From Sulfurimonas sp. (GTDB taxonomy: Bacteria; Campylobacterota; Campylobacteria; Campylobacterales; Sulfurimonadaceae): DNA of 64,000 nucleotides. Positions 40,924-51,417 of the stretch are shown here, piece by piece; positions within the stretch are counted from its first letter, which is position 1; every line of letters begins with the position of its first letter. Below the pieces are notes generated by a model. It searched no databases. It was not told the DNA's origin and saw only the letters and a list, made by a program, of their open reading frames with translations. The position numbers were made by a program, and so were the translations under genes. The stretch covers positions 186,001-250,000 of the forward strand of contig NZ_JAQTLH010000001.1 of the NCBI RefSeq assembly GCF_028714975.1, written 5' to 3'.

Positions 40924-41364
40924 ATGAGTACGATAAAAGAATTTTTAACTACAGATCACGGTCGTTGCGACGAACTATTTGCAAATATGGAAGATGCGGC
41001 GGCAAAATCTATCGAGAGTGCTAAAGAGGCATATGAAGAGTTTGCAAAATCGACTGAGAGACATTTTCAAATGGAAGAACGAGTTATGTTTTTAGAGTTT
41101 GAGCAAAAAACCGGCATGACGCAAGGTCCTACTGCTATGATGAGACATGAACATGCTCAGATGAGAAACTTAATAGCAGAGATGGGTAAAGCAATAGAGG
41201 CTAAAGATAAAGATAAATTTTTCGGCAATAGCGAAACATTAATGATTTTAATGCAGCAACACAATATGAAAGAGGAACAGATGCTCTACACTATGGCTCA
41301 ACAGCACTTAAGTGCAGAGTCTGATCGTATAGTAGATATGATGCAATCAATGATCGCTCAGTAA
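40924..41364 (+). CDS. Hemerythrin-domain protein
   Basis: Non-haem diiron protein likely to bind oxygen or nitric oxide, or to act in iron-sulfur protection. Ligand-like residues are spaced as expected: H in TTDHGRCDELF, H in TERHFQMEERVMF with following Glu, H in MMRHEHAQMRN, and H in QQHNMKEEQMLY. Length is 146, with no signal peptide, so it is cytoplasmic. It is followed 15 bases later by a haem-copper-oxidase-like membrane protein, and the two probably form one operon. Confidence 0.86.
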   Translation: MSTIKEFLTTDHGRCDELFANMEDAAAKSIESAKEAYEEFAKSTERHFQMEERVMFLEFEQKTGMTQGPTAMMRHEHAQMRNLIAEMGKAIEAKDKDKFFGNSETLMILMQQHNMKEEQMLYTMAQQHLSAESDRIVDMMQSMIAQ

Positions 41365-41379: not shown

Positions 41380-42678
41380 ATGGAATTTGACGGATTATCG
41401 GTAGATCAAGCACCGCCCATATCGGCACCGATTAGATTCTTTGTAACGGCGCCTCTCTTTGCTATTTTAGCAGGGATTTTAATATTTTTAAGTGATGCCC
41501 AAGTTTTAGCCAGTAGATACTCGATTGAAACGATTGTAATTACACATGCAATAACTATCGGTTTTTTAAGCTTTGTAATGTTTGGTGCGCTCTTTCAAAT
41601 GCTTCCTGTTTTAGCCGGAGTGAAAATTTCAAAAGTAGATATAATCTCTAAAATTTCATATACTCTTATGTTAGTCGGTACTTTTTCTATGATTTTTGGG
41701 TTATGGCTAAATATATCAAAATTGATTTTAGTCTCGTCACTTCTGCTTGGCGGTGGTTTTTTAACGGTAATTATCTCAATGTTGGTTGCATTTAGAGGCG
41801 TTATAAATGTAACCCCAAGTGTTAGAGCGATGATTACGAGTTTAGTTTTTGCTTTCATTATAGTATTGATAGGAATGCATCTTTTAGCATCTTACGGAAT
41901 CGGTAAGTTTTCCGGTTTGCATGGTTTGTTTGCAAATATTCATAGCGTTTGGGCAATTTTCGGTTTTGCCGGAGTTTTGATTATCGGCGTGGCTTTTCAT
42001 GTGTTGCCGATGTTTTATGTCGCACCGAGATTTAAGAAATTTTGTAAACAAAAAGTCGTATGGCTCATAACTAGCGGACTTCTGCTGTGGCTAGTTTTAA
42101 ATATATTTGCAGAGTCATATAGCACAATCGCAAAAATATGGGTAGCTATGTTTTTTTGGGCATTTTCGACAACCGTTTATCTTAAATTAAATGCCCGCCG
42201 CCGCAGGGTGAGTGATATAACCGTTTGGTACTGGAGAAGTGCGGCTATTTTTATGACTTTGGGTACATTTTCTTGGGCATTTAATGATTTTTTCGACGGG
42301 AAATATATAGTTATTGTGGCGATTTTAATAGGCGGCGGATTTATTTTCTCAATTATGTCGGGAATGTTATATAAAATAGTTCCGTTTTTGGTATGGTTTC
42401 ATCTAAACGCTAAAGGTTATATGACTATCCCGACGATGAATGAAATGATAAATAAAAAATTAGCAACTGCTCAGTTTGTACTTTTTATAATCTCTTTAGT
42501 AGGTTTTATCATCTCTTTTTTCATTCCGAGCATTTTGCCTATATTTGCTATCTCGTTTATAAGCAGTATGGCAATATTAGAGTACAATATTGTTATTCCA
42601 ATTTTGATTTATGCAAAAATCATAAAAACCAAACCGGAGTTTGATATGAGCATGTTTACAATGAAAGTAGAAAAATAG
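41380..42678 (+). CDS. Polytopic membrane protein, haem-copper oxidase subunit I/NnrS-like
   Basis: About twelve membrane helices in 432 residues. Several helices carry His in the pattern of haem-copper oxidase-like proteins: ITHAITIGFLSFVMFGALFQML, MHLLASYGIGKFSGLHGLFANIHSVW, and GVAFHVLPMFYVAPRF. It also has FLVWFHLNAKG. These could bind haem or copper, as in NnrS-type nitric oxide resistance proteins. It lacks a full cytochrome oxidase signature, and no subunit II gene is near. The hemerythrin gene 15 bases upstream supports a role with oxygen or NO (inference). aroK follows after two bases. Confidence 0.6.
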   Translation: MEFDGLSVDQAPPISAPIRFFVTAPLFAILAGILIFLSDAQVLASRYSIETIVITHAITIGFLSFVMFGALFQMLPVLAGVKISKVDIISKISYTLMLVGTFSMIFGLWLNISKLILVSSLLLGGGFLTVIISMLVAFRGVINVTPSVRAMITSLVFAFIIVLIGMHLLASYGIGKFSGLHGLFANIHSVWAIFGFAGVLIIGVAFHVLPMFYVAPRFKKFCKQKVVWLITSGLLLWLVLNIFAESYSTIAKIWVAMFFWAFSTTVYLKLNARRRRVSDITVWYWRSAAIFMTLGTFSWAFNDFFDGKYIVIVAILIGGGFIFSIMSGMLYKIVPFLVWFHLNAKGYMTIPTMNEMINKKLATAQFVLFIISLVGFIISFFIPSILPIFAISFISSMAILEYNIVIPILIYAKIIKTKPEFDMSMFTMKVEK

Positions 42679-42680
42679 AA

Positions 42681-43196
42681 GTGAAAAATATTATCTTAAT
42701 AGGCTTTATGGGTGTAGGCAAGGGCAGTGTTGCCCGTGAAGTAATCAAGCTCTCCGATTATGTATCCGTGGATACCGATGATCTTATAGAGAGTATGGAG
42801 AATAAAGCCGTCAAAAAAATATTCGCAGATAGCGGAGAAGAGTATTTTAGGTCTTTAGAGAAAAAAGTTTCACACTGGCTTGAAAAAAGTGTTAAAAACA
42901 CTCTCATTTCAACCGGCGGCGGATTTTATAAACAGAAAAATTTAAAAGATATCGGGGTAGTTGTTTTTTTAGACTCTTCGTTTGATAAGATACTAGAGAG
43001 AATAAATTCTCATCCGAATGCGGTAAAAAAACTTAAAAAAAGACCGCTTTTAGAGGACTTAAAAAAGGCAAGAGAGCTTTATAACGAGCGTTTGCCTCAG
43101 TATAAGGCTTTAGCGGATGTTGTTATAGACGTAACCGATAAAAGTGCACTTGAGTGTGCTAAAGAACTTCTTTCAAAGGTAAAAAAACATGGGTAA
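42681..43196 (+). CDS. aroK: Shikimate kinase
   Basis: Phosphorylates shikimate in aromatic amino acid synthesis. P-loop GFMGVGKGS is near residue 8, shikimate-binding VSVDTDDLIE near 29, and Walker B-like region STGGGFYKQ near 76, then KRPLL with the lid residues. Length is 171. GTG start at 42681, two bases after the upstream stop. The P-loop has Gly-Ser after Lys (GKGS) instead of the common GKST/GKTT, a mild deviation. Confidence 0.92.
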   Translation: MKNIILIGFMGVGKGSVAREVIKLSDYVSVDTDDLIESMENKAVKKIFADSGEEYFRSLEKKVSHWLEKSVKNTLISTGGGFYKQKNLKDIGVVVFLDSSFDKILERINSHPNAVKKLKKRPLLEDLKKARELYNERLPQYKALADVVIDVTDKSALECAKELLSKVKKHG

Positions 43197-43608
43197 AATT
43201 TTTATATATTTAATGTTGAGTATTGCTACTCTTATGGCTTCTGAAATAAAGTGGGCGAAAGATTTCAATAGCGGGGTCGCAGAAGCAAAAAAAGTTAACA
43301 AACCGATACTTTTTGTGTCTTCAAGACACTCATGTAAGTATTGTGTTATTTTAGACGAGACTACATTTAAAGATAAAAGAGTCATAGAAGAGCTTAATAA
43401 AAATTTTGTCTCAATAATCTCGTATAGCGATCAAAATGATTATATGCCTAAAGAGTTGTGGCAACCGGGTACCCCTGCAATATGGTTTTTAGAGCCGAGT
43501 GCAGAACCTATGTATCAACCGTTAATGGGTGCTATGGATGCTGAAAATTTCTTAAAAGCATTGGTTATCGTTAAAGAAGAGTTTAATAAGGAAAAAAAGA
43601 AAAAATGA
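43189..43608 (+). CDS. Exported thioredoxin-fold protein
   Basis: Probable periplasmic thiol protein. A signal peptide (MGKIFIYLMLSIATLMAS) is followed by KPILFVSSRHSCKYCVILDETTF, where CKYC is the redox motif near residue 52, and by LWQPGTPAIWFLEP with the cis-Pro typical of thioredoxin folds. Length is 139. Eight-base overlap with aroK and four-base overlap with hisD indicate one transcript. The substrate is unknown. Confidence 0.83.
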   Translation: MGKIFIYLMLSIATLMASEIKWAKDFNSGVAEAKKVNKPILFVSSRHSCKYCVILDETTFKDKRVIEELNKNFVSIISYSDQNDYMPKELWQPGTPAIWFLEPSAEPMYQPLMGAMDAENFLKALVIVKEEFNKEKKKK

Positions 43609-45003: not shown

Positions 45004-45269
45004 GGTTATGAAGTCAAATATATAATCTTCTATTTATATATAAAGCTATTAGTTTTCTTTGATAGCTTCATTATTAATAACCCAAATATTCCCAACAAAT
45101 AAAAAATATTATAAAATTATCACATTTTTATAACTAATTTAAGCTTTATGTAGGTAGTATTTAGGAAGTAAGAATTCATAAAACTTGCAAAATAAGGGTT
45201 TCTTTTTAAAAAGATTAACTAAAGTTATAAATCTTAAAATTTGTCTGCAAAGGGCTATAAGGAGAATAT
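45004..45269 (+). other. AT-rich leader region before the molybdenum reductase operon
   Basis: With the repeat, this makes a 363-base gap without a gene. It holds a small hairpin AAGCTAT/ATAGCTT (45043-45049 and 45062-45068), a possible -10 box TATAAA (45226-45231), and the Shine-Dalgarno AAGGAG (45259-45264) of the next gene. No tRNA, riboswitch or FNR/ArcA-type site was recognised. The antisense open frame here has no supporting features. Confidence 0.4.
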
Positions 45270-45908
45270 ATGCAATTAGGCTTCCTGGTTGATTTACATC
45301 TATGTATGGGATGTAAAGGGTGTGAGGTCGCATGTAAAGTGGAAAATGAAGTTCCGCTGAGTACATGGAGACTTCGTGTTAAATATGTAGATGTAGGAAC
45401 TTTTCCTGAAACAAGAAGAACATTTACGCCGCTAAGATGTAATCATTGTGAGAATGCGCCGTGTGAGAGAATCTGTCCGGTTAGTGCGCTTCACTATTTA
45501 GAAAACGGTATCGTAAATATCGACAAAGAGCGTTGTATCGGTTGTGCAGGTTGTGTTATGGCTTGTCCGTACGGAGCAATTTATATCGATCCTCAAACGC
45601 AAACTGCCGATAAATGTACATTCTGTGCTCACCGCGTGGCTTCATCAATGATGCCTGCATGTGTTGTTGCATGTCCTGTTCAGGCAAATATTTTTGGAGA
45701 CTTAGAAGATCCTACTTCAAATATCTCTAAATATATTCAAATTCATCAAGGCGGAGTTCAAGTGCGTAAACCTGAAAAAGGAACAAATCCTCATCACTTT
45801 TATGTCGGCGGCGGAAATGTTACGCTTAACCCGCTTGCTTCACATAGAACGCATGGACACTCACTGTTTAATAACATCACAACACTTCCAATAGGAGGAC
45901 ATCACTAA
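45270..45908 (+). CDS. Four-cluster ferredoxin subunit (PsrB/NrfC type)
   Basis: Electron-transfer subunit of a molybdopterin oxidoreductase. The 212 residues hold four [4Fe-4S] motifs: CMGCKGCEVAC near residue 12, CNHCENAPCERICP, CIGCAGCVMACP, and CTFCAHR...CVVACP. It has no twin-arginine signal, so if the complex is periplasmic it must be exported with the catalytic subunit. The stop codon touches the start of the NrfD-type gene (TAATG). This is the first gene of a three-gene operon in the order B-C-A. Confidence 0.92.
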   Translation: MQLGFLVDLHLCMGCKGCEVACKVENEVPLSTWRLRVKYVDVGTFPETRRTFTPLRCNHCENAPCERICPVSALHYLENGIVNIDKERCIGCAGCVMACPYGAIYIDPQTQTADKCTFCAHRVASSMMPACVVACPVQANIFGDLEDPTSNISKYIQIHQGGVQVRKPEKGTNPHHFYVGGGNVTLNPLASHRTHGHSLFNNITTLPIGGHH

Positions 45909-46807
45909 TGGCACATGAAATATTAGCAGCGACGAATGCTGTAGTTACTTTAGATGCAGCAATACCGGGAATAGTATGGCCTTGGTTGGTTACGGTAAAT
46001 ATGTGGGCGAAGAGTATAGGGACAGGTGTTATCTTTATGCTTTTTATGCTTCTTAGAATGTATCCTGAACAAGCAGGAAAGTTGAGATTGCCGACGGCGA
46101 TAGTTGCTTTTGTATTTATCAATATCTTCTTGTTGTTTACGCTTGCGGATTTACATCAACCGTTTAGAATGTGGCATATATTTGTTTATTCAAACTGGAC
46201 ATCTGCGATAGCAATAGGTTCTTTTATGGCTTCAACATTTTTGGGTCTTTTGACTTTTTTAGGATATATGGCATATAAAAAAGATTATGCAATGTTTGAC
46301 AAAGTATTGCTTTGGACAACCATTCTTGCAATTCCGGTAACGCTTTATACTGCCGGTCTGATGGCTCAGTGTACGGCTCGTGAATTGTGGCAAATGCCGA
46401 CAGAATCTGCTCAAATGATTTTAGCAGCTCTTCTTTCTGGTTCTGCATTTATGATACTTATGGGTGGAAGTACGCTTAATGATAAAGCTAAAAACACTCT
46501 AGGCGTTGTGCTTGGACTAAGTGCGTTAATGGCGTTTATTATCTATATGTCAGAGTATATATTCGGACCGATGAAAGCAGAAGAAGTTGCTGCTACTATT
46601 GATTATGTCAAAAGCGGCGGACAATACTCGGTTATGTTTTGGATAGGCCAGTGGATGACATACATTTTACCGATGTTATTTATCGTCTTAAGTAGAACAA
46701 GCAAGAGCGAAAGTATATTAAAGCTTGCGGCTATTTTAGCGTTAGTAGGTCTAGCTATAGTTAAACATGTATGGCTAATGATTCCACAATTATTACCAAT
46801 GAGTTAG
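45908..46807 (+). CDS. NrfD/PsrC-type quinone-interacting membrane subunit
   Basis: Integral membrane subunit (299 residues, about eight helices) that exchanges electrons with the quinone pool. N-terminal IVWPWLVTVNMWAKSIGTGVIFMLFMLLR and FTLADLHQPFRMWHIFVYSNWTSAIAIGSFM are family-typical, the latter near the quinol pocket. A strong AGGAGG lies before the ATG. It joins the ferredoxin subunit to the membrane; no cytochrome subunit is present. Confidence 0.9.
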   Translation: MAHEILAATNAVVTLDAAIPGIVWPWLVTVNMWAKSIGTGVIFMLFMLLRMYPEQAGKLRLPTAIVAFVFINIFLLFTLADLHQPFRMWHIFVYSNWTSAIAIGSFMASTFLGLLTFLGYMAYKKDYAMFDKVLLWTTILAIPVTLYTAGLMAQCTARELWQMPTESAQMILAALLSGSAFMILMGGSTLNDKAKNTLGVVLGLSALMAFIIYMSEYIFGPMKAEEVAATIDYVKSGGQYSVMFWIGQWMTYILPMLFIVLSRTSKSESILKLAAILALVGLAIVKHVWLMIPQLLPMS

Positions 46808-46819
46808 GGAGAGATTTTA

Positions 46820-49800
46820 ATGTATTTAGAAAGTAGAAGAACATTTTTAAAAGGCGCTGCATTTACTGTTGCAGGTGCCACTATCGCAAAGGGTGTATTT
46901 ACATCCGATGCTATCGCTGATTCAGTAAAGGACAGCAAGTTTACAAATACTCCGGGCTCTTTATCATTTTATCCTCCGATAAACGAGTGGAATGATTTTA
47001 AAGAGTTAGACGGTAATGATTGGAAAAGAGGCGGTATAGATCGCCACGGTGTAAGAAGTCAGTCAAATCCTAAAGGTATTGAAGTAAATGATTACGCTAT
47101 CGTTCCTACTGCATGTTCAAACTGTGAAGCTTCTTGCGGTTTAACTGCATGGATTGACAAAAAAACTTTTACGGTTAAGAAGTATATGGGTAATCCTTTC
47201 CATCCGGGAAGCCGCGGTCGTAACTGTGCGAAAGGTTATGCAGTTCAATCTCAAATGTATGATCCCGATCGTATAGCGTTCCCGCTTAAACGTGCTCCGG
47301 GTTCTGCTCGCGGAGAGGGCAAGTGGATTCGTACTACTTGGGATGAGGCTATGACGACTATCGGTAAGAAGATGGGCGATACCATAAGAATCGGTGATGA
47401 AATTTCAAAAAAATCGGTAATGTATCATGTAGGTCGTCCAAATGAAAACGGGTTTGTTCCTGCTATTTGGCATACATTAGGTTTGGATTCTTATAACTCA
47501 CATACGAACATCTGTTCAGCAAATGGTCGTACTGGTACGATTCAGTTTGCAAATGACGATAGAACATCACCTGACTGGGCAAATGCTAAGTTAGTTTTCT
47601 TAAACTCTTCGCATGCAGCAGATGCAGGTCACTATTTTGCGCAATCTGCGGCATTTATTGCCGATGCAAGATCTAAGGGTGCAAAGATGGTCGTTATGGA
47701 TCCTCGTTTGTCAAACTCTGCGGGTATGGCTGATTTATGGATAGCTGCATGGCCGGGTACTGAACCGGCTATTTACCTTTATTTAACGCAAAGAATTTTA
47801 AATGAAAACAAAGTTGATAAAGCGTTTGTTAAAAAATGGATAAATTGGGAAGTATTTTTAGATAATAAAAAATATTTAGAGTTTATGGTTAAAAAAGGGT
47901 ATATTTCTAAAGTTCCTGCGGGAGATGATTTTGATACGTTTTTAGCAGTTTTAAAAGAGCTATATTCTCCTTATACTTTAGATTTTACCGTTAAAGAGAC
48001 GCATGTTCCTGCATATAAACTTGAAGCGCTTTATGATATGTTTATATGGGCAGGCGATTCAATATCTACATACTTTTGGAGAGCATCTGCTGCCGGAAAC
48101 CGCGGTGGCTGGATGGGTGGTCGTACAGGCTATTTTGCGCTTGCTCTTCGTGGAGCAATCGGACCTGAGGGTGGTACATTCTTCCACCACTGGCATGTTA
48201 TCTCTGTATCAGGAAAGGGCGGTAGCTCTACCGTCGGACAAGGTATGCGCGGAGTAAATGTTCCAAAAGTCGATGTTTATAACGAACTTACATATCCGCC
48301 GGAATGGCCTCTATCATCTTATGAGATGTCGTTTCTTTTACCGCATCTTTTAAGTGACACCGAGTGGCAGGAAAAATGGATAGCAAAAGGGCTGAAAGTT
48401 CCTCAAAAACTATCCGTTTATATCCCTCGTATGTATAATCCTGTATGGATTAATCCAGATGGATTCAGATGGATAGATGTTCTTAAAAATGAGTCTAAGA
48501 TGGAGCTTACTATGAATCTCTCTCCTGTTTGGTCAGAGACAAACTGGTATATGGATTATATTTTACCTGTCGGACTTGCAGGTGAGAGACACGATCAACA
48601 CTCAGAAGCTACAATGCCTGCTCGTTGGACATCTTTCCGTCAACCTGTTTTAAGAGTTGCTCTGGAAAAAGCAGGATGGAAGGCTAAAAATCCTGCTCGC
48701 GCGACACTAGAAGCTCATATTAAAGCCGGACTCGGTGAAGTTTGGGAAGAGAATGAGTTTTGGTTTGAACTGTGTGTTAATTATATAGACCCTACAGGTG
48801 ATCTTGGTATTAAAAAGATGTGGGAGTCTAAGAAAAATCCTGGGAAACCTGTAACGATTGCCGAGTGGTACGATGCTGCATTTGGCGATAACTTGCCAAA
48901 TCTAAAAGCGACGGCAACAGCAGATGAGAGATACAAAAACTCTGAATATCCGGTATATGAGTACTTAAGAGATTACGGTGCATGGATGGAAGAGAATAAA
49001 ATCTATTCAGCACAAGAGCGTGAGATAAAGGATGACGGAGAAAATTATATTTCTCACGGTCATAAATATGATAAAAAGCATGTTCATATTAATAAAAGAA
49101 CAGGTGTTATGACGGCAGAGCATGACGGTAAAAAAACACCTATGGGTATTGAAATTAACGGTAAAAAAATGGAAGGTTTTGAAACGCTTGATAAAAAACT
49201 AGACTTCTTCTGTGAGTGGTTCGCCGATGATTGGAAATGGCCGGAGTATGCTATTCCGTTTTATCCAAGAAACGAACAAGAGAAAAAAGAGATGGTTCAT
49301 ATCGTATCGCATGTAAACCACTCTTATATGACAGAGAAGAATTCATATGCTTTAAATACGGTTTTCCGTTTACCGTATAATATTCATACACGTTCTGCCA
49401 ACTCGAAACATTTGATGGAGATATCTCAAAATCATGACCCTATTTGGATCTCAACTTCTGATGCTAAGAGACAAGGATTTAAACGCGGTGATGCTATCCG
49501 TGTTAAAATTGTGGACAGCTTAACAGGTCTAGAATCAGGTCACTTTGTTGCGATGGCTATCCCTACAGAGGGCGTACTTCCGGGTACGCTTGCTTGTTCA
49601 CACCATGGAGGACGTTGGAAATTATCTAACTCCGTGTCTATTCCAAACGGTGTAAGTGATGGAAAAGTTAATCCACAGCCGATAGCAAGAAATGTAAATG
49701 ATCCTAAATTTATCGCTCATCCTGTTGATAATGTAGGTAAAGACGGAGCACAGATTAAAATTGAAGATTATAGCGGAAAAGCCGGAATCAATAGTTTCGG

Positions 49801-50212
49801 TGTTCCTACTGCAGAGCTTCAAATGGACGGAAAAGTCGGTAAACTCAAATATGTAGAGGGTATCAAGCCGTTTAAAGCAGAGAGATTTGCAAATTACAAC
49901 AGAGATAGCGGAAATATCTGGTGGGACGGACTCAGCGGTTCATGGCAAAATGCCGTGGCAGCTCCGCATCCTGACCCGATTTCAGGTATGCACTGTTGGC
50001 ACCATAAAGTTATTTTAGAGCCTGCACAGCAAGGTGATAAAATCGGTGATATTTATGTAAATTATGATAACAACTTTAAGGTATATAAGGGATGGAGAGA
50101 TCAGCTTACGCGCGGGTTGGATGAACATTCTACACTTCGTCGTCCTGAGCATGTCAAACGCCCTTGGGTACCTCTGTCTCATAAAGCGTATGTAGTTAAA
50201 ATCGGAAAATAG
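46820..50212 (+). CDS. Molybdopterin oxidoreductase catalytic subunit, Tat-exported
   Basis: Catalytic subunit (1130 residues) of a complex in the polysulfide/thiosulfate/tetrathionate/arsenate reductase group. A Tat signal SRRTFLKG (residues 5-12) is followed by the [4Fe-4S] motif CSNCEASC near residue 98 with a fourth Cys in NCAKG. The segment TNICSANGRTGT supplies a Cys that may be the molybdenum ligand. The C-terminal dinucleotide-binding domain includes YNIHTRSANSKHLMEI and CSHHGGRW. It is longer than PsrA/PhsA (about 760) and nearer TtrA in size, with a long insert rich in charged residues about 690-850. The substrate is not decided; sulfur compounds fit the suggested genus. Confidence 0.86.
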   Translation: MYLESRRTFLKGAAFTVAGATIAKGVFTSDAIADSVKDSKFTNTPGSLSFYPPINEWNDFKELDGNDWKRGGIDRHGVRSQSNPKGIEVNDYAIVPTACSNCEASCGLTAWIDKKTFTVKKYMGNPFHPGSRGRNCAKGYAVQSQMYDPDRIAFPLKRAPGSARGEGKWIRTTWDEAMTTIGKKMGDTIRIGDEISKKSVMYHVGRPNENGFVPAIWHTLGLDSYNSHTNICSANGRTGTIQFANDDRTSPDWANAKLVFLNSSHAADAGHYFAQSAAFIADARSKGAKMVVMDPRLSNSAGMADLWIAAWPGTEPAIYLYLTQRILNENKVDKAFVKKWINWEVFLDNKKYLEFMVKKGYISKVPAGDDFDTFLAVLKELYSPYTLDFTVKETHVPAYKLEALYDMFIWAGDSISTYFWRASAAGNRGGWMGGRTGYFALALRGAIGPEGGTFFHHWHVISVSGKGGSSTVGQGMRGVNVPKVDVYNELTYPPEWPLSSYEMSFLLPHLLSDTEWQEKWIAKGLKVPQKLSVYIPRMYNPVWINPDGFRWIDVLKNESKMELTMNLSPVWSETNWYMDYILPVGLAGERHDQHSEATMPARWTSFRQPVLRVALEKAGWKAKNPARATLEAHIKAGLGEVWEENEFWFELCVNYIDPTGDLGIKKMWESKKNPGKPVTIAEWYDAAFGDNLPNLKATATADERYKNSEYPVYEYLRDYGAWMEENKIYSAQEREIKDDGENYISHGHKYDKKHVHINKRTGVMTAEHDGKKTPMGIEINGKKMEGFETLDKKLDFFCEWFADDWKWPEYAIPFYPRNEQEKKEMVHIVSHVNHSYMTEKNSYALNTVFRLPYNIHTRSANSKHLMEISQNHDPIWISTSDAKRQGFKRGDAIRVKIVDSLTGLESGHFVAMAIPTEGVLPGTLACSHHGGRWKLSNSVSIPNGVSDGKVNPQPIARNVNDPKFIAHPVDNVGKDGAQIKIEDYSGKAGINSFGVPTAELQMDGKVGKLKYVEGIKPFKAERFANYNRDSGNIWWDGLSGSWQNAVAAPHPDPISGMHCWHHKVILEPAQQGDKIGDIYVNYDNNFKVYKGWRDQLTRGLDEHSTLRRPEHVKRPWVPLSHKAYVVKIGK

Positions 50213-50342: not shown

Positions 50343-50840
50343 TTACAAACTTACCCACCACATTTTAAGCCACAGTCCTAGAGTAGTCGTATATCCTACA
50401 TCGCTAAATAACTCATTACCCTCTCTATCATAAATAATTGTTGTCGGAAAGACGGAGATATTAAATTTTTGGGTGATAGAACCGTCATAATCATTAATAA
50501 CTCTAAAACTTAGGTCTTGACTCTTCAGATACTCCTCTATTTTTGAATCATTTCCCGATTTAAGTGCAACTGTTAAAACATTAAATTTTTTTGATATTAG
50601 CTCAATATTAGGTGCCTCTGCTCTACATGTAGGACACCAAGTTGCCCAGAAGTAAATTAAAACGGGCTCACCTTTTGGCAATGTATATGAGCTGTTATTT
50701 ATGAGAGTAACGGGCGGCATATTTAATGCGCTTTTATTTAAATCACTGCTTCTGTATAGACTTAATATATTTGCGAGAATAGTCATGATAATAAAAAAAA
50801 TAGCTATCTCTTTGAGGTATTTTGCTGTTTTATCTTTCAT
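50343..50840 (-). CDS. TlpA-like membrane-anchored thioredoxin
   Basis: Periplasmic disulfide reductase. An N-terminal membrane anchor (EIAIFFIIMTILANILSLY) is followed by a redoxin domain with PVLIYFWATWCPTCRAEAPNIELISK, whose CPTC motif near residue 70 is the active site, and by FNISVFPTTIIYDREG with the cis-Pro. Length is 165. Convergent with the Mo reductase operon; divergent from the NosL-like gene. It may reduce cytochrome c or NosL-type apoproteins. Confidence 0.87.
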   Translation of the reverse strand: MKDKTAKYLKEIAIFFIIMTILANILSLYRSSDLNKSALNMPPVTLINNSSYTLPKGEPVLIYFWATWCPTCRAEAPNIELISKKFNVLTVALKSGNDSKIEEYLKSQDLSFRVINDYDGSITQKFNISVFPTTIIYDREGNELFSDVGYTTTLGLWLKMWWVSL

Positions 50841-50916: not shown

Positions 50917-51417
50917 ATGTATAAAATTGGAATCCCTTTAGCAATCGCTTTTTTACTAGTCGGCTGCGGAGGCGAAAAAAATATTAGTCCAAAATCTAGT
51001 ATGTTTCAAAGTGTTCATGAACATGAGGCAATTTTGCTTCAAGACGGTAAAAATAAAAATTATTGCTGCCGATGCGGGATGGATTTGGTTAAATATTATA
51101 AAACAAGCCATAGTGCGACACATGATGACACGGTATATCAATATTGCTCTATTCACTGCTTGGAGGATCATTTAGGTGAGGGTATTATGCTTAAAAACCC
51201 TAAAGTTGTAGATGTAAGCTCTCTAAAGTTTATTGATTCTACAAAAGCTTACTATGTTGTAGGCAGTCAAAAAAGCGGCACTATGAGTAAAATAAGCAAG
51301 TATGCTTTTGCCAATGAAGAGGACGCTAAAAAATTTCAAGCCCAGTTTGGCGGTGAAATTATGGATTTTTACAAGGCTTTAGAGATTGCTAAGAAAGATT
51401 TTAAATATTATAAATAA
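50917..51417 (+). CDS. NosL-like lipoprotein
   Basis: Exported lipoprotein with lipobox LLVGC at residues 13-17. The mature part has CCRCGMDLVKYYKTSHSATHDD and YQYCSIHCLEDHL, both metal-binding in appearance, followed by VVDVSSLKFIDSTKAYYVVGS and AFANEEDAKKFQAQFGGEIMDF, the typical NosL C-terminus. NosL proteins deliver copper to nitrous oxide reductase, but no nos genes are in this window. Divergent from the TlpA-like gene, suggesting shared periplasmic metal or thiol chemistry. Confidence 0.82.
   Translation: MYKIGIPLAIAFLLVGCGGEKNISPKSSMFQSVHEHEAILLQDGKNKNYCCRCGMDLVKYYKTSHSATHDDTVYQYCSIHCLEDHLGEGIMLKNPKVVDVSSLKFIDSTKAYYVVGSQKSGTMSKISKYAFANEEDAKKFQAQFGGEIMDFYKALEIAKKDFKYYK

Follow-up and report, generated by a model that had tools for sequence, protein, structure and literature searches.

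A three-gene operon in Sulfurimonas

The window analysed here, a 64-kb stretch of Sulfurimonas DNA, is part of a 2.06-Mb genome in 23 contigs. It contains an operon consisting of three genes in the order FeS–NrfD–catalytic (B-C-A), which encodes a molybdenum respiratory enzyme (Table 1). A good ribosome-binding site precedes B. The start codon of C shares one base with the end of B, and 12 bases separate the end of C from the start of A. The three open reading frames had been reported in the initial annotation, and their positions and lengths proved exact. A promoter scan gave 14 matches compared with 16.6 in shuffled sequences, which is no excess, and a terminator scan gave 5 compared with 3.9, about what is expected by chance.

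Some match is found in 58 of 60 relatives. Nearly all genomes of the same genus carry an orthologue at 60-93% identity, followed by a gap down to paralogues at ~30%; the closest named neighbours are Sulfurimonas MAGs (89-93% identity). The FeS, NrfD and catalytic genes are complete and in B-C-A order in 18 of the 20 loci first read. One of the other two is cut by a contig end and one lies on a chimeric single-cell contig, and in both the end of NrfD is directly 5' of A. The orthologues and the complete loci led us to reject chance ORFs, and recent horizontal acquisition was rejected because the family is conserved across the genus. At locus L011 (1-1487, on the same contig as L085, Sulfurimonas SAG AH-194-L11), the ORF of a signalling protein continues directly into the second half of NrfD. 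The join looks like a chimera from single-cell amplification, and we therefore rejected the reading that B and C share one frame there.

Table 1. Features of the B-C-A operon, in positions of the 64-kb window
Feature	Position	Strand	Basis
Ribosome-binding site AAGGAG, 5' of the FeS gene	45259..45264	+	sequence
Subunit B, 212-aa ferredoxin-like protein	45270..45908	+	ORF; best NCBIfam TtrB, 205 bits (cut-off 416)
Subunit C, 299-aa NrfD-type membrane subunit	45908..46807	+	PF03916, 69 bits
Subunit A, 1130-aa Mo-bisPGD catalytic subunit, Unk-clade MopB protein	46820..50212	+	ORF, profiles, trees
Tat motif SRRTFLKG, residues 5-12 of A	46832..46855	+	sequence
[4Fe-4S] motif C99-x2-C102-x3-C106-x29-C136 of A	47114..47227	+	sequence, alignment
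Mo-ligand segment SHTNICSANGRTG, residues 227-239 of A	47498..47536	+	alignment
Charged region, residues 720-838 of A	48977..49333	+	alignment, composition
Extra loop, residues 940-988 of A, in the C-terminal MGD-binding domain	49637..49783	+	alignment

Features of the three subunits

Subunit B contains 16 cysteines, matching four [4Fe-4S] clusters, and is 46% identical to TtrB. Its sequence confirms that it has no export signal of its own. This had been listed as an oddity but is ordinary, as PhsB also lacks a signal, while TtrB has one. Subunit C has about eight transmembrane helices by hydropathy and, by analogy with its family, would interact with quinone.

The catalytic subunit carries the twin-arginine leader previously noted (ESRRTFLKG, residues 4-12). 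The segment NICSANGRTG is likewise present, at residues 230-239 including Cys232, but the description of its Cys context as unfamiliar does not hold. Cys232 sits at the canonical Mo-ligand position in the alignment, in register with the ligand Cys of PhsA, TtrA, ArrA and NapA. The surrounding NSHTN[IV]CS is common to the relatives from Rhodococcus, Thermomicrobium and Natrinema, and the His at -4 and basic residue at +5 match those of TtrA and ArrA. We rejected a loss of Mo binding like that of QrcB because all four Fe-S cysteines are kept along with the ligand Cys.

The initial annotation also proposed one charged insert, longer than 100 residues. Residues 720-838 are charged (34% KRDE, compared with 24% for the whole protein), but 955-aa relatives also have the region, or most of it. 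Compared with PhsA, the additional residues of A are spread over several short indels. Relative to the 955-aa proteins, they comprise the Tat leader, indels of 6-20 residues and a block of 42-50 residues at about 939-988, which besides the leader is the only long unbroken extra. The family falls into two subgroups in this respect: one of about 1130 aa that has the 940-988 loop (most Sulfurimonas, Sulfuricurvum) and a sister subgroup of about 1090 aa in which 40 residues of the loop are missing. An AF2 model of A, built from 36 close sequences, was uninformative on the proposed insert and too weak to define a substrate pocket (pLDDT 54, pTM 0.57); its PDB matches indicate the superfamily fold (TM-scores, query, 0.28-0.37).

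A separate clade beside TtrA and ArrA

None of the NCBIfam equivalogs reached its cut-off for A: PhsA scored 132 of 694 bits, ArrA 61 of 1600 and TtrA 52 of 1750. Utilizing a plasmid protein search, we found full-length relatives in Thermomicrobium roseum, Rhodococcus jostii RHA1 and haloarchaea at 34-38% identity, and one in Azoarcus KH32C at 26%. Two maximum-likelihood trees of 36 and 30 rows were built. The first had no ArrA; references for it were missing from a 101-genome draw and present in a 299-genome draw. In both trees, the Campylobacterota family groups with the Rhodococcus, Thermomicrobium and Natrinema proteins with support of 100/100. Azoarcus KH32C and a protein from a further locus (L137) join next, with 98/96 in the first tree and 100/99 in the second. 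TtrA and ArrA follow in the second tree with 100/99, and TtrA alone in the first with 99/98. In both trees, proteins of the PhsA/PsrA type form a group apart. Presumed PsrA2/SreA-like proteins of Campylobacterota fall with NapA, far from the family, in these trees, which were built without named sequences for SoeA, bacterial SreA, SrdA and W. succinogenes PsrA. Constraining the family with PhsA/PsrA is 19 log-likelihood units worse (p-AU 0.004), a value that needs caution because the grouping was picked after the tree was seen. The separate clade suggested by the initial annotation is borne out in outline, in that the family lies outside PhsA/PsrA and beside TtrA/ArrA and no equivalog fits, but it is not new, and appears to be the Unk clade discussed below.

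That this is a true PsrA/PhsA polysulfide/thiosulfate reductase, as the name psrABC says, is very improbable. PhsA and the T. thermophilus polysulfide reductase (PSR) are the best single NCBIfam and PDB matches of A, and the name has literature behind it (PMC4584964, PMC10045233). PsrABC and PhsABC also share with the operon three subunits, Tat on A only, a Cys ligand and His at -4. However, their gene order is ABC, their A is about 760-850 aa, and it is other genes in the relatives' genomes that belong to the PhsA/PsrA clade. Membership was rejected on gene order, on the separate clade and on the low PhsA score.

An oxyanion reductase like TtrA and ArrA, acting on tetrathionate, arsenate or selenate, would agree with the position in the tree, with the residues at -4 and +5 of the ligand Cys and with TtrB as the best FeS model. 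When the clade profile is compared with solved structures, ArrA is the best match at 222 bits, ahead of the T. thermophilus PSR at 214. TtrBCA is alike in gene order, as tree neighbour and in the basic residue at +5, and ArrAB/ArrCAB in its Cys ligand within an SHxxIC motif. We nevertheless find this function unlikely. The TtrA and ArrA scores are far under cut-off, and no ars or ttrRS genes were seen beside the operon. Nearly every member of the genus also carries the gene, and the electron acceptors listed for the genus are nitrate, nitrite and oxygen (PMC4584964). Membership in TtrA itself was rejected on the TtrA and TtrB scores and because B lacks the signal that TtrB has; membership in ArrA, which has CAB or AB order and about 850 aa, was rejected on score and separate clade.

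The family matches the Unk clade

Duval et al. 2008 (PMC2500031) described a clade of unknown function, Unk (unkBCA), lying between Arr and Psr. Its A carries Tat, except in a subgroup described as having a B of 60 kDa and lacking C; the outgroup consists of long Azoarcus/Dechloromonas branches. Gene orders are given there as BCA for ttr and unk, ABC for psr/phs and CAB for arr. The B-C-A order, previously regarded as unusual, is also found in ttrRS-ttrBCA on an E. coli plasmid. Compared on published features rather than on the 2008 accessions, the Sulfurimonas family matches Unk feature by feature, suggesting that it belongs to this already known clade. Both have BCA order, Tat on A and not on B, and a Cys Mo ligand; both are near Arr and Ttr and have a cytoplasmic large-B subgroup and an Azoarcus-type outgroup. 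We saw no difference that excludes membership. Wells et al. 2023 describe a seemingly novel lineage, sister to TtrA/SrdA. In the accessible literature we found neither a function assigned to Unk since 2008 nor biochemistry for any family member.

The A proteins of Rhodococcus, Thermomicrobium and Natrinema have no Tat leader, and the accompanying B is 506-607 aa. The large B (L165-L168) contains a complete NrfD domain in its C-terminal half (PF03916, 65-80 bits). C is therefore fused to B and not missing, which corrects the earlier description (PMC2500031). This FeS-NrfD fusion is an addition to the known clade, as is a module of TorD and polyferredoxin that is 3' of B-C-A in other genera and elsewhere in this genome.

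Accessory module and neighbouring genes

We compared 82 loci, many of which have short flanks. In about 30 of them, A has genes near it for a TorD-type chaperone, for a polyferredoxin of 368 aa and for two small proteins. In Sulfurovum mangrovi all four lie 3' of A, and in Azoarcus KH32C TorD and a 24%-identical polyferredoxin are downstream. In the window's genome the TorD–polyferredoxin module is on another contig (C9, 47406-50556, L196), along with two other proteins without a Pfam match. This TorD is the genome's only PF02613 match, and the module probably matures the Unk enzyme.

R. jostii RHA1 has DsrE2 and TusA preceding the B-C fusion and A, with metallo-beta-lactamase genes adjoining, and the Natrinema caseinilyticum operon is preceded by a rhodanese and a TauE/SafE exporter. 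These neighbours point to sulfur chemistry.

In Azoarcus sp. KH32C (L169, 242-3925), the BCA-TorD operon adjoins a divergent PhnD-like binding protein, a sensor kinase and a sigma-54 regulator, a set which we take to resemble the AioXSR/ArxXSR arsenite regulators. In Sulfurovum mangrovi (NZ_CP087125.1; L164, 6140-9308), two overlapping ORFs in different frames make up the catalytic gene, and neither it nor the FeS gene is entered in the gene table of the record.

Distribution among Campylobacterota

Relatives are encoded in 353 stretches of the named genome collection. Across the phylum, 52 of 298 sampled Campylobacterota genomes carry the family. ATP-citrate lyase is present in 51 of these 52 carriers and in 25 of 246 non-carriers. 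The corresponding counts are 29/52 and 25/246 for SoxB, and 27/52 and 24/246 for SoxC; Fisher tests of this co-occurrence ignore shared ancestry. No SoxB match was found in 23 of the 52 carriers, among them the window's genome (none at E<=1e-50), although SoxC is present there (609.9 bits). By these counts, the enzyme goes more closely with reverse-TCA chemolithoautotrophs than with any single Sox gene.

The genes named psrABC in Sulfurimonas and Sulfurovum

The gene called psrABC in papers on Sulfurimonas and Sulfurovum is almost certainly the Unk-clade gene of the window. All sequenced Sulfurimonas carry psrABC (PMC4584964). Han and Perner 2015 (PMC4584964) show a split in 'PsrA', with non-vent Sulfurimonas grouping with Sulfuricurvum and the vent species S. 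autotrophica with Nitratiruptor, similar to the two subgroups with and without the loop. The same authors state that S0 reduction is not known for most Sulfurimonas, though all that are sequenced carry a psrA homologue (PMC4584964).

For Sulfurovum indicum, ligand-Cys numbers of 171, 247, 183 and 195 are given for PsrA in that order (PMC10045233). Cys247 is found in a Sulfurovum-type member of the family (L043) and 171 in a PsrA2-type protein. From this numbering we infer that the Unk family is PsrA1 of S. indicum, although the paper puts 171 first and 247 second. PsrA1 is strongly expressed and not significantly induced under S0 reduction, whereas psrA3 is (PMC10045233). PsrA1-4 are reported to lack a Tat motif and were hence placed in the cytoplasm (PMC10045233). 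However, the family genes read here have a clear SRRTFLKG-type leader, raising the possibility that the start codon of PsrA1 is annotated too far downstream.

The enzyme is near-universal in Sulfurimonas, a genus of major chemoautotrophs that live at vents, in redoxclines and in sulfidic groundwater. In papers, the gene is counted as polysulfide reductase, and S0 reduction is deduced from its presence. If our tree is right, that inference from psrABC is unsafe.

Proposed function

We consider it probable that the Unk (unkBCA) complex iron-sulfur molybdoenzyme is a menaquinone-linked oxidoreductase that acts in the periplasm on polysulfide or another sulfur compound. We infer its sulfur substrate, its cellular location and its electron path as follows. 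Subunit A would be exported by the Tat system in folded form, containing one [4Fe-4S] cluster and a Mo-bisPGD cofactor bound through Cys232, and B would probably be carried along. Electrons would pass through the four [4Fe-4S] clusters of B to or from C, the NrfD subunit, and C would exchange them with menaquinone. The active site would then face the periplasm and most probably handle polysulfide or another sulfane-sulfur or sulfur-intermediate compound, as the name PsrABC implies. Maturation would probably involve the single TorD-like chaperone encoded with the polyferredoxin. Besides the gene neighbourhoods of the relatives, this reading is supported by the occurrence of the family in genomes with ATP-citrate lyase and by the transcription of psrABC along with sqr and sox genes at the sulfide boundary of the Black Sea. 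Counting against it are the many Sulfurimonas in which S0 reduction is not known, the lack of significant induction of the probable PsrA1 under S0 reduction and the 23 carriers without a SoxB match.

Electrons could flow in either direction. It is possible, though less likely than not, that the enzyme is mainly oxidative, with polysulfide, sulfane sulfur or sulfite oxidised in the periplasm and menaquinone reduced. The enzyme would in that case belong to the core sulfur-oxidation chain and not to S0 respiration. Consistent with oxidation, the gene is core in sulfur-oxidising autotrophs, with ATP-citrate lyase in all but one carrier, and is present in sequenced Sulfurimonas without demonstrated S0 reduction (PMC4584964). 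The probable PsrA1 is constitutive and high (PMC10045233), the Rhodococcus relative has DsrE2-TusA and metallo-beta-lactamase genes as neighbours, and a review of the marine sulfur cycle states that the psr-like enzymes found in sulfur oxidisers may operate in the reverse direction. Against oxidation, psrABC expression in the Black Sea, which has its maximum together with that of sqr and sox genes at the sulfidic boundary, does not follow sqr and soxCDYZH after normalisation, and SoxB and SoxC are found in only about half of the carriers.

Extending the oxidative reading to the whole clade, we suggest tentatively, and regard as rather doubtful, that Unk is a third class of quinone-linked sulfur molybdoenzyme. 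It would be oxidative and a core component of those sulfur-oxidising Campylobacterota that use the reverse TCA cycle. Actinobacteria, Thermomicrobiota and haloarchaea would have a cytoplasmic counterpart in which B and C are fused and to which TusA/DsrE2 or rhodanese sulfur carriers deliver the substrate.

Other genes around the operon

Several further genes of the window recur near the operon. A thioredoxin-like gene (43189-43608) flanks it on one side, with homologues nearby in 50 of 82 loci, and a TlpA-like gene (50343-50840; 40 of 82) and a NosL-like gene (50917-51417; 27 of 82) on the other. A 432-aa hydrophobic protein without a Pfam or NCBIfam match is encoded at 41380-42678, adjoining a hemerythrin-domain protein (40924-41364), and has homologues near the operon in 21 of 82 loci.
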